This document shows positions 1-33,916 of a DNA stretch of 38,356 nt, piece by piece. The DNA is from Dehalococcoidales bacterium (GTDB lineage: Bacteria > Chloroflexota > Dehalococcoidia > Dehalococcoidales > BS750m-G39). The notes below the pieces were generated by a model. The model had not been told where the DNA came from. It saw only the letters and a program-made list of their open reading frames with translations, and ran no database searches. The stretch lies in contig JAGMCH010000061.1 of NCBI GenBank assembly GCA_023129255.1, forward strand, positions 1 through 38,356. The letters run 5' to 3'. Positions within the stretch are counted from its first letter, which is position 1. The number at the start of each line of letters is the position of its first letter. A program made the translations under genes and the position numbers.

Positions 1-253
1 CGTATACCTTAGTCCTTTGCCCACGAACACTGGTGAAGATACTATCAAGCCTGCCACTGCTAGCCAGATAAACCATAACCGAAAAGACAGGCAATATACT
101 GACAGCGATTAAAATCAGCGACCATTTGAGGGCATCGGCTATGCTGGACGCCGACTCAAAGGAAAGCAAAAGGATTACTACCAGACTCACCGCGAAGGGA
201 TTCAGGATATGAGAGGTCAGGTTAGCTATCCGCTTTCTGGTCTCAATTTGCAT
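1..253 (-). CDS. Membrane protein, 5' part only (cut by window edge)
   Basis: A minus-strand frame opens with ATG at 253 (MQIETRKRIANLTSHILNPF) and stays open to base 1, so only the first 84 residues are present. It shows two hydrophobic stretches, around residues 22-32 and 44-62, followed by a basic loop (VRGQRTKVY). Membrane proteins with an N-terminal ILNPF-type segment and an RxQR loop include PAP2-like phosphatases, but no phosphatase motif falls in the visible part, so no function is claimed. It is divergent from the ABC exporter that starts at 322, and the 68-base gap would hold both promoters. Confidence 0.6.
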   Translation of the reverse strand, partial: MQIETRKRIANLTSHILNPFAVSLVVILLLSFESASSIADALKWSLILIAVSILPVFSVMVYLASSGRLDSIFTSVRGQRTKVY

Positions 254-281
254 TTGCCAAAGGCTCTACCATTAAACTTGC

Positions 282-14039: not shown

Positions 14040-14060
14040 GTTATTTATTAATTTGATTAT

Positions 14061-14250
14061 CTACCTCACCCCCTTAATCCCCCTCTCCTTCAAAGGAGAG
14101 GGGGAGGATTATTTTAAAAGAGGGGCTTCGCCCCTCTTAAACTCCCTGCTAGATTAGTTCCCCCCAACCACCCCAAAAGTAAGAGAGTTAGAGAGGTGAA
14201 ACCTCTATTGGGCGGGTGGGTGGGAAAGAAAACACAGGTTAAAAACGGGG
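14061..14250 (+). repeat. Hairpin plus G-quadruplex intergenic repeat, most complete copy
   Basis: Order of parts: a CTACCTCACCCCC lead; perfect 12-bp hairpin CCCCCTCTCCTT (14079-14090) with AAGGAGAGGGGG (14093-14104); hairpin AAGAGGGGC/GCCCCTCTT with a TTC loop (14118-14138); hairpin AGAGGT-GAA-ACCTCT (14192-14206); GGGCGGGTGGGTGGG (14210-14224); and a tail AAAACACAGGTTAAAAA. It fills the gap between two minus-strand genes, and no ORF is present. The lead and first hairpin match the copy at 33769-33812 in reverse orientation with one difference over 30 bases. Confidence 0.8.
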
Positions 14251-31329: not shown

Positions 31330-31812
31330 ATGGAAATTGCCCTATGTGTGATAATTTTCGCTTTACTTGTGGTAATCCTGGTATTAGTTCTCAGGCCGAG
31401 GAAGGTAGCCGTGCCGGCTATAGAAGAGCTTGAAGCCAAGCTCAGGTTTGCCTTAGCCTCGGCAGCCTCGGTCAAGGAGATTCAAGTTGCCCTGGAAGAC
31501 CTGCCCCACGACGTTCTGGAATCAATAACCCGCAGTCTGGGCAAGCGAACGGGCAAGCTGAACGAGCTTCTGGCCACCTTTGAACTGACCAAATACGACC
31601 GCCTTTTCTATCTGGGAGAGCCGGTTGACTTTGTCGGTATCAAATACGATGAAGGCATAGATTTTATAGAAGTGAAAACGGGCAGAGCCAGCCTGACCAA
31701 GGACGAAAAGAGGCTGAAAGACCTCATTGAGCTGAAGATGGTCAACTATGTGCCCCTGTCGGTGCAGAGGATAGGCATCGCCGAGGAAGTTGATGTTGAG
31801 GAAGGGGAGTAA
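31330..31812 (+). CDS. Membrane-anchored Holliday junction resolvase-like nuclease (COG4741 type)
   Basis: A 160-residue protein with an N-terminal helix (IALCVIIFALLVVILVLVLR), a helical linker, and a PD-(D/E)xK-type nuclease core. The aspartate is in PVDFVGIKYDEG and the E-x-K is in IDFIEVKTGRA. This layout is that of the archaeal and bacterial proteins annotated as Holliday junction resolvase-related endonucleases. It lies just after ruvC-ruvA, consistent with a role in DNA processing. Its last 14 codons and the 3' flank are duplicated exactly at 32244-32311. Confidence 0.75.
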   Translation: MEIALCVIIFALLVVILVLVLRPRKVAVPAIEELEAKLRFALASAASVKEIQVALEDLPHDVLESITRSLGKRTGKLNELLATFELTKYDRLFYLGEPVDFVGIKYDEGIDFIEVKTGRASLTKDEKRLKDLIELKMVNYVPLSVQRIGIAEEVDVEEGE

Positions 31813-31835
31813 GCGGGTTTGATTTGATGGAGATG
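31768..31835 (+). repeat. 68-bp perfect direct repeat, left copy
   Basis: From AGGATAGGCATCGCC to GATTTGATGGAGATG, identical to 32244-32311. This copy covers the last codons of the nuclease gene (residues RIGIAEEVDVEEGE and the stop) plus 23 bases of 3' flank. Confidence 0.95.
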
Positions 31836-31893: not shown

Positions 31894-32244
31894 ATGCCAA
31901 CTATACTTGTGGTATATAATGCCAAGGATCTAAAGACTGCGGACGATTATGAACAGTATCTAAAGAAGAAGAAGGTTGCTTTCTTACGGTCAAAGCCTTA
32001 CATCGACTCATATGAGAGTTATCGGATTGATAAGGTACTGGCGCCTTCGGTACTCGATGCCAAGAATCCGCCCTCGGAGCCCCCGTATCAGTTTATTGCC
32101 AAGTGCGAGGTCAACAATCTGGAGGATTTTGCTAAAGATGCGCAGACACCTGAGATGATGGCCTTCGCCGAAGAATATAGCGCCTATATCGACCCAAACG
32201 GGCCTCTTAATGTGTTCACCATTGGCCATAAGGTTGAGCCGTAA
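31894..32244 (+). CDS. HapK/REDY-like small protein
   Basis: A 116-residue protein with a ferredoxin-like (dimeric alpha-beta barrel) pattern: MPTILVVYNAKDLKTADDYE, KVAFLRSKPYIDSYESYRID, then YQFIAKCEVNNLEDFAKDAQ and FAEEYSAYID. This resembles the REDY-like HapK domain, named from a prodigiosin pathway protein but widespread and of unknown activity. The frame extends to 31876, but AAAGGAG seven bases before ATG 31894 sets the start. The gene lies exactly between the two 68-bp direct repeats, which suggests it arrived by, or could be lost through, recombination. Confidence 0.65.
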   Translation: MPTILVVYNAKDLKTADDYEQYLKKKKVAFLRSKPYIDSYESYRIDKVLAPSVLDAKNPPSEPPYQFIAKCEVNNLEDFAKDAQTPEMMAFAEEYSAYIDPNGPLNVFTIGHKVEP

Positions 32245-32311
32245 GGATAGGCATCGCCGAGGAAGTTGATGTTGAGGAAGGGGAGTAAGCGGGTTTGATT
32301 TGATGGAGATG
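32244..32311 (+). repeat. 68-bp perfect direct repeat, right copy
   Basis: Identical to 31768-31835, but here non-coding. It begins at the last base of the HapK-like gene's stop codon. The unique sequence between the copies is 408 bases. Confidence 0.95.
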
Positions 32312-32376: not shown

Positions 32377-33156
32377 ATGGTTGACCAAGAGCCTCAAAAA
32401 ATTATCGACAAGAAAGAAAAAGCTAGAAAACGAGGCGGGAAGTCGTTTCCAGTGCTGAGTTTTAATGAAGCGTTAGTTTTAGCTAAAGGAATAGTTGAAC
32501 ACAGCGCCGGTAAACAGATGCGACGTCTAACACTGTTTGATAAATTGAAAAGATCTCCCACTAGTGGACCAAGTCGGCTATTAGTCACAATCTCAAGTAG
32601 ATACGGATTGACTACTGGAAGTTACACTGCTGAATATATAGTAATAACCAACGATGCTCAAACAATCTTGAGTGGGACTTCTTCAGAATCAGAACGCCGC
32701 CAACAGAGTTTCCAACTCGCTATTCAACAGCAAAGCGTTTTTCAGCAATTATATGAACGACTCAAGGGTAAACGCCTGCCTGCACTTGATGTGATCAAAG
32801 ACGAGTTAGCACAGATAGGTGTGCCTGTGGGTGACCGTGGTGCTGCGGCAGAAGTCTTTATTCAGAATACTAAAGATTTACGGCTAATACGTGAAATATC
32901 AGGAAAAGATACTTTATTACCCATTGAGCAAGTTCTTGAAGAACTCCCTTCTGATAGACAGCCACCCGCCAGAGTGATAAAAGAAGAACCTATCACAGAA
33001 AGTAAGGCAGCAGGTGCTGAAAAACAGAAGGTTAAAGTTGAACCAAACATCCAATTAAATATCGAGATACACATTGCCGCAGATACACAAAATGATAAAA
33101 TCAAGGTCATTTTCGAAAACATGAAAAAGTATTTACTAACAAGAAATAATGAATGA
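32377..33156 (+). CDS. Unknown accessory protein, first gene of an AT-rich pair
   Basis: A 259-residue soluble protein, not firmly recognised. Residues about 25-110 form one unit (SFNEALVLAKGIVEHSAG, PSRLLVTISSRYGLTTGSYT, AEYIVITNDAQTILSG) with a wing-like pattern. Residues 113-175 are a second helical unit (FQQLYERLKGKRLPALDVIK). A charged linker of about 45 residues leads to a C-terminal strand-helix block, NIQLNIEIHIAADTQNDKIK then VIFENMKKYL, a tail seen in other accessory and defence-linked proteins. GAAGGAGG precedes ATG 32377. The gene is AT-rich (23 of 60 bases G+C in the line at 32461) and overlaps the next gene by eight bases. Confidence 0.65.
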   Translation: MVDQEPQKIIDKKEKARKRGGKSFPVLSFNEALVLAKGIVEHSAGKQMRRLTLFDKLKRSPTSGPSRLLVTISSRYGLTTGSYTAEYIVITNDAQTILSGTSSESERRQQSFQLAIQQQSVFQQLYERLKGKRLPALDVIKDELAQIGVPVGDRGAAAEVFIQNTKDLRLIREISGKDTLLPIEQVLEELPSDRQPPARVIKEEPITESKAAGAEKQKVKVEPNIQLNIEIHIAADTQNDKIKVIFENMKKYLLTRNNE

Positions 33157-33670
33157 CAAGACGAGCAACTGGCATAAAAGAATCTCGGATTACGTTGCAA
33201 GCCTACCCGAAGAATTACTCGCTAGTTACAAATTTACTCAAGATGAGTATAGTGACGGCGTAATCCCTTTTGAAATTTACAAAGGTACTCATGGTTACAT
33301 AGAGCGAATAGCTAATCAAATTAATAAAGCATATCACTTTGGGATATACGACGGCTGCCTAGTTCTCATGCGACGCCTTATAGAAACATTGCTTATTCTA
33401 GCATTTAGAGAACTTGGAATTGATTCGGAAATAAAAGATAAAGATGGAGCTTATCTCCGTCTTTCTAAGATAATTAACAAAGCTGAAAATAATAAAACTA
33501 TAGCGTTGACCTTGAATGCTAGGGATGGCTTGAAACCGTTTAAAGTGGGAGGGGATTTATCAGCCCATAACCCCTATTTCTGTGCTCGCCAGAAAGACAT
33601 TCTTAACTTCCGCCTGCAGTATCGGGCTTTGGTAGAAGAATTACTTAATAAAGCTGGTATTCTAAAATAG
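33149..33670 (+). CDS. HEPN/DUF4145-like protein, second gene of the AT-rich pair
   Basis: A 173-residue helical protein. The block INKAYHFGIYDGCLVLMRRL, IETLLILAFRELGI and later GGDLSAHNPYF resembles DUF4145-type HEPN proteins, in which a long helix with RR and a late A-H-N segment are conserved. H140 is in the right place for the HEPN histidine, but the usual R-x4-6-H spacing is not present, so RNase activity is uncertain. ATG 33149 overlaps the stop of its partner. GC is low (23 of 60 in the line at 33301). A strong terminator follows at 33736, so the pair forms a closed unit, plausibly a defence or stress module. Confidence 0.6.
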   Translation: MNDKTSNWHKRISDYVASLPEELLASYKFTQDEYSDGVIPFEIYKGTHGYIERIANQINKAYHFGIYDGCLVLMRRLIETLLILAFRELGIDSEIKDKDGAYLRLSKIINKAENNKTIALTLNARDGLKPFKVGGDLSAHNPYFCARQKDILNFRLQYRALVEELLNKAGILK

Positions 33671-33692: not shown

Positions 33693-33812
33693 CCCTTTTA
33701 TCTATTCCCACCCACCACCCTTATAGGAAGAGTCTAAGAGAGGCGAAGCCTCTCTTTTTTATTTCCCTCCCCCTCTCCTTTGAAGGAGAGGGGGATAAAG
33801 GGGGTGAGGTAG
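33693..33812 (-). repeat. Hairpin plus G-quadruplex intergenic repeat (reverse orientation)
   Basis: Plus-strand order: C-tract CCCACCCACCACCC (33707-33720), hairpin AAGAGAGGC-GAA-GCCTCTCTT (33736-33756), a T-run, then hairpin CCCCCTCTCCTT/AAGGAGAGGGGG (33769-33794) and ATAAAGGGGGTGAGGTAG. The last 44 bases mirror the copy at 14061-14104 almost exactly. Confidence 0.8.
33736..33760 (+). terminator. Intrinsic terminator after the AT-rich gene pair
   Basis: A perfect 9-bp stem AAGAGAGGC/GCCTCTCTT with a GAA loop, followed at once by TTTT and then ATTT. It lies 66 bases after the stop at 33670 and is part of the repeat at 33693-33812. Confidence 0.75.
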
Positions 33813-33916
33813 ATAAATAAACCCCTAAAAGCTATACTATTTAATAGAACATGTTAGCAGGGTAAATAAGTTGCGCCTGTATTGCCGATGATACAAAGAA
33901 AAAGGTGAAAACAAGA

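Follow-up and report, generated by a model that had tools for sequence, protein, structure and literature searches.

A C-terminal tail linked to HEPN genes in a candidate sensor–effector pair between ruvA and uvrB of a Dehalococcoidia genome

What function could be served by two overlapping, AT-rich genes lodged between yebC–ruvC–ruvA and uvrB in a member of the Dehalococcoidia (Chloroflexota)? The pair, P1 followed by P2 (32377–33670 of the window, as the whole 38,356-nt stretch of DNA analyzed is called here; Table 1), was singled out in a first-pass annotation as a candidate defence or stress system, a reading supported in part here, and both open reading frames were confirmed where it had placed them. 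It appears to be a mix-and-match module of stress or anti-phage function that is so far uncharacterised, and to be a new version of an already catalogued candidate. The reading that is favoured here, and considered probable, is that of a two-gene module made of a sensor and a HEPN effector, an accessory cargo of the variable ruvA–uvrB interval. In Dehalococcoidia isolate fen_1078 (locus L001), the one other genome with the pair in the same interval, the homologous genes differ from those of the window by 0.52/0.58 at third codon positions against 0.19/0.14 at second positions; P1 and P2 are therefore real genes under protein-level constraint. The stop of P1 and the start of P2 overlap by 8 nt, as do the paired genes in L001 and L021, and overlaps of 1–4 nt join the paired genes in L109, L110, L112, L113, and L114. 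The ribosome-binding site of P1, read from the sequence, is good (GGAGGG); no obvious one is seen in the sequence for P2, so that this gene is likely to be translated by coupling to P1. The GC content of the pair is 0.393, compared with a mean of 0.511 (sd 0.035) for segments of equal length in the window; about 1% of these segments reach a value as low, and all those with GC ≤0.42 begin between 32041 and 33111, the pair being the AT-richest stretch. The base counts behind the first-pass claim of low GC (23, 23, and 37 of 60 bases) were exact on recounting, and its description of the pair as foreign-looking and coupled is supported. In L001 the homologous pair is poorer still in GC (0.35 and 0.32).

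Table 1. Features of the gene pair and its flanks (positions in the window, unless given as residues).
Feature	Position	Strand	Description	Basis
68-bp repeat, copy 1	31768–31835	+	end of the Endonuc_Holl gene (about 43 bp) joined to the final 25 bp of a PCC-domain gene now deleted	
68-bp repeat, copy 2	32244–32311	+	shortly before the pair; remnant of PCC (SGFDLMEM followed by stop)	
P1	32377–33156	+	259 aa	ORF list
P1 domains	residues ~20–190; 199–221; 215–256	+	predicted tandem winged-helix; disordered linker; strand-helix tail	AlphaFold2, homologues
P1 tail	33019–33144 (residues 215–256)	+	KVEPNIQLNIEIHIAADTQNDKIKVIFENMKKYLLT...	held-out tail HMM; identity to DUF5343 tail
P1 stop/P2 start overlap	33149–33156	+	8 nt	sequence
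P2	33149–33670	+	173 aa	ORF list
Terminator-like hairpin, dispersed palindromic repeat	33736–33809 (hairpin and repeat); 33740–33830 (repeat)	+	downstream of the pair	

The N-terminal domain of P1 is predicted to form sensor-like, DNA-binding-like tandem winged helices. The AlphaFold2 model has a mean pLDDT of 81 (about 90 or more across both winged-helix units) and ends in a helix at residues 239–255; a fold search with P1 returned weak, mixed winged-helix matches only. For both P1 and P2, no match above the cut-off was found in Pfam and none in NCBIfam, PADLOC, or PHROGs, and a PDB sequence search gave nothing. The family of the P1 N-terminal domain spans Dehalococcoidia and other Chloroflexota, and tblastn with P1 found no relatives in plasmids or phages. 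In 6 of 13 scanned homologues, a CAP12/Pycsar TIR domain (Pfam match) is fused C-terminally to the P1-type domain. The proteins of L023–L036 and L116 carry such a TIR or its degenerate counterpart; these winged-helix–TIR proteins constitute an uncharacterised Chloroflexota family and lie mostly among housekeeping genes. The P1-type gene of genome G054 (L022, 5534–6439, minus strand) has an in-frame TAG between its halves, and is either a pseudogene or affected by an assembly error. Profile comparison (100 columns in register, P = 0.0086, probability 4.7%) did not establish homology of the P1 N-terminal domain to DUF5343 (PF17278), for which Pfam gives no match in P1, though tails are common to both families.

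No part of P1 proved more informative than the IEIHIAADT-type tail that the first-pass annotation had noticed at its C-terminus. In genome G383, the gene before a P2 homologue codes for a DUF5343 protein (E 4e-34) instead of P1, and the last 40 residues of this protein share 52% identity with the corresponding ones of P1. An HMM of four tails, run on 301 Chloroflexota genomes, recovered five more (E 8e-11 to 3e-14), and a scan of viral contigs with the tail added one; the tail alone had no match in plasmid or phage collections, and tblastn with the G383 DUF5343 protein found no relatives in plasmids. When an HMM of seven tails, none of them from the P1 family, was searched against 4,696 ORFs, it detected the held-out tails of P1 (E 4.7e-13), L022 (9e-18), and L001 (9e-9), while E 0.73 was the lowest value among 2,000 shuffles of P1. 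The same tail is carried by P1-type N-termini (window, L001, L022), by DUF5343 N-termini (assigned by Pfam in L021, L110, L112, and L113, and in L109 and L114 by their likeness to those four), and by another winged-helix-like N-terminus (L111). A related variant, NIQIHLPATxD..VYxxIF, occurs on DUF5343 proteins (L037–L042), its likeness to the tail of the window being only marginal (E between 0.002 and 1, with one missed). A further exchangeable tail, LPxxGxWTxxxRxxWLxA, occurs without a HEPN neighbour on DUF5343 proteins (L044, L046, L049, L052) and on a P1-domain protein (L118, 1480–2238), which is recovered by a profile built from the DUF5343 proteins (E 3e-8); judging from these sequences, tail exchange between the P1-type and DUF5343 sensor families has thus probably happened at least twice.

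The tail is linked to HEPN genes. In all nine loci with a readable downstream gene (window, L001, L021, L022, L109, L110, L112, L113, and L114; L111 ends at a contig edge), the gene that follows the tail gene codes for a HEPN protein, of the P2 type in six cases and of the Ymh type in three (PF09509, E 2.5e-33 in L022). These are small numbers, from Chloroflexota and one viral contig; five of the nine loci were found through the tail alone, and four through P1 or P2 or as the window itself. By contrast, neither the 21 loci of tail-less DUF5343 proteins nor the 14 of other P1-domain homologues contained a gene matching these HEPN profiles. In the L037–L042 variant, a Swt1-like gene or one of another RNxxAH HEPN family comes next in 6 of 6 loci, which were left out of the count of nine because of the marginal likeness of their tail.

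With regard to P2 itself, the leading Foldseek matches are HEPN proteins of the alpha-helical fold (2hsb, prob 1.00; 1wol and 2q00, 0.97; further, 1ufb, 1o3u, and HepT), with weak E-values (0.06 and above) and a query model of moderate confidence (pLDDT 66). P2 also shows a weak similarity to DUF5677 (PF18928; E 0.002, 18.6 bits, below the curated cut-off of 27.1), and the relative in L113 one to DUF4145 (PF13643; 15.9 bits, below the curated cut-off of 23.1). The first-pass proposal of a HEPN-like second gene is upheld by these data, and the folds predicted for the two proteins, winged helix and HEPN, are of the nucleic acid-binding and HEPN kinds on which it depended. The RX4-6H catalytic motif of the superfamily is missing: the P2 family has K-x7-H with GDxSAH, and in P2 the motif GDLSAH stands where RNxxAH is expected. 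In the alignment of six family members, K132, G135, D136, S138, A139, and H140 are invariant. The RNase activity of P2 and its subfamily is doubtful because the arginine of RNxxAH is absent, and the GDxSAH motif raises the question of whether K-x7-H HEPNs are active enzymes. P2 is present in 2 of 393 genomes of the class; tblastn with P2 found no relatives in plasmids, and a scan of viral contigs found none either.

Several known or catalogued systems share features with the pair. The first-pass annotation did not recognise it as a named system, and this holds for the pair itself, as P1 has no match to PADLOC PDC-M34A and P2 none to PDC-M34B in searches up to E 10, but not for the relatives that share its tail: the proteins of L021, L110, and L112 match PDC-M34A, and DUF5343 proteins with a tail, together with Swt1-like HEPNs, match the candidate PDC-M34A/B. 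Like the window pair, PDC-M34 consists of a winged-helix-type protein with a C-terminal tail (A, a DUF5343 protein) followed by a HEPN (B, Swt1-like); it differs in that P1 has an N-terminal domain of another family, P2 lacks RNxxAH, and the tail of the window is a distinct subtype. The class appears to be catalogued but unstudied, since no mention of DUF5343 or PDC-M34 was found in the open-access papers searched. The Ymh HEPNs (PADLOC PD-Lambda-3_B/Aga_HEPN) are partners of the window-type tail in L022, L109, and L110 and keep RNPRAH, whereas P2, whose active-site motif is altered, is a HEPN of a different (DUF5677/DUF4145-like) family. The CAP12/Pycsar TIR (PF10137; PADLOC PDC-S35) is fused to the P1-type domain in some homologues, while the window has no TIR but a tail and a separate HEPN gene. 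The likeness to AbiJ-NTD, in which the same N-terminal domain is joined to HEPN, TIR, and other effectors (Anantharaman, 2013; PMC3710099), is one seen in architecture; the domains are fused in those proteins, whereas the genes are separate here and are connected through a short tail. Finally, HEPN–MNT type VII toxin–antitoxins are also two-gene units with a HEPN member, although P1 has predicted winged helices and no nucleotidyltransferase match.

For the pair, we infer a mechanism in which the tandem winged helices of P1 would detect a phage product or nucleic acid that is foreign or aberrant. Until the sensor fires, P2 would be bound, and held or positioned, by the flexible linker and the strand-helix tail; it would then act on RNA or otherwise halt growth in an abortive-infection manner. 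The tail would be an exchangeable connector, being found on DUF5343 and another winged-helix sensor and with two HEPN families, and the sensor domain of P1 is elsewhere directly fused to a TIR domain. A broader proposal, plausible if short of probable, is that this segment of about 40 residues is a general docking module, by which several winged-helix sensor families recruit interchangeable HEPNs from the following gene, direct TIR fusion being the other option; PDC-M34 would be one branch and the window pair, with its atypical HEPN active site, another. If the tail is such a transferable connector, evolution could recombine sensors and effectors that are separately encoded, and about 40 residues would suffice to predict pairs that lack annotation. 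Swaps of tails and partners open direct tests of the PDC-M34-like class.

The main rival has the same anatomy. In a type II toxin–antitoxin, P1 would be a DNA-binding antitoxin that represses the operon, its tail would neutralise the HEPN toxin P2, and defence would be secondary or absent. The overlapping operon with the antitoxin gene first agrees with this, as do the DNA-binding-like N-terminus, disordered linker, and short C-terminal segment of P1, the HEPN partner, and the exchange of partners, which is normal for type II-like antitoxins (PMC10440598). However, the direct fusion of the P1 domain to TIR in relatives is more in keeping with a sensor than with an antitoxin, there are tandem winged-helix proteins that carry other tails and have no HEPN neighbour, and the canonical catalytic arginine is absent from P2. 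The toxin–antitoxin is for these reasons regarded as unlikely, and the sensor–effector module is preferred.

The altered motif of P2 also weighs against the sensor–effector module, and might instead indicate a regulatory complex devoid of toxin activity, where P2 would be a catalytically dead HEPN modulating P1, a factor of transcription or DNA maintenance. The replacement of RNxxAH by GDxSAH throughout the P2 family is what this would predict, and many DUF5343 relatives have stable neighbours (e.g., DprA-like and CoA-transferase-like genes). Such a complex is nevertheless quite improbable, given that the histidine of the P2 family is invariant, that the distribution is patchy, and that the same tail pairs with Ymh HEPNs in which RNPRAH is conserved and of which two belong to restriction or Hma operons. 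The L022 pair lies between hsdS and hsdR. The L109 pair adjoins a DNA methyltransferase gene, and L111 adjoins a gene for a Mrr-type nuclease. In L110 (6456–7714), a pair of DUF5343-tail and Ymh HEPN genes is located between HmaA and HmaB, and is possibly the HEPN arm of a Hma/BREX-related operon; Hma is a candidate system named by the authors of PADLOC (PMC8565338) and re-read as BREX-related by others (PMC12839542). In L114 (4380–6616), an IMG/VR contig, the genes of the tail protein and the P2-type HEPN are directly beside a phage-type integrase gene, named by reading its sequence. Such defence or mobile contexts of relatives (L022, L109, L110, L111, and L114) speak for the sensor–effector module. 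None was seen for the window pair or L001, beside which no defence genes were recognised. This last result counts against the sensor–effector module, as does the location of L037, L042, and L113 among housekeeping genes.

The interval itself was compared among relatives. Between the window and L001, identity is 62–63% for yebC, ruvC, and ruvA, 79% for uvrB, 62% for P1, and 66% for P2; that the pair equals the neighbouring ruv genes in identity also fits an old vertical inheritance and in this respect disfavours mobile cargo. In closer relatives with a readable interval (uvrB 81–92% identical) the pair is absent, and several of them fill the interval with other AT-rich ORFs. Among the occupants are a HNH-like gene of G256 (L093, 5234–6118, GC 0.38) and unknown ORFs of 548 aa (L095, 202–1848) and 242 aa (L097, 6650–7378), both AT-rich (all in reverse-complement coordinates). 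An intact PCC gene precedes the HNH gene in G256 (L093, 4767–5207) and the pair in L001 (7444–7884), so that genes are gained and lost in the interval downstream of PCC, and the window pair occupies the slot that it has in L001. This slot may be shared through common descent followed by losses, or through insertion more than once at a single site. That the pair is an ordinary old one of the lineage, not mobile, with AT-richness due to relaxed composition, is very hard to believe in spite of the shared slot beside the same PCC gene or remnant and of a divergence from L001 equal to that of the neighbours, since closer relatives lack it and hold other AT-rich ORFs, P2 is so rare in the class, and GC falls far below that of the flanks in both hosts. 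The patchy distribution likewise led us to reject conserved housekeeping genes in a stable context, the outcome that would have spoken against the first-pass proposal.

The 68-bp repeat reported at first pass upstream of the pair is real, and its two copies are exact. It can be explained as a fossil of the junction between Endonuc_Holl and PCC genes, then duplicated around an EthD-like gene. The Endonuc_Holl-type gene (31330–31812; PF10107, E 1e-8) adjoins ruvC and ruvA. On the other side of the pair, the feature that had been called a mobile terminator element does contain a terminator-like hairpin, and is named here a dispersed palindromic repeat. This repeat (CCCTCTCCTT...AAGGAGAGGGGG...AGGGGGTGAGG) has about 40 scored copies in the genome, and probably more; it also occurs at 14057–14132 of the window, in many other places of the genome, and in the relative G390 (L094).
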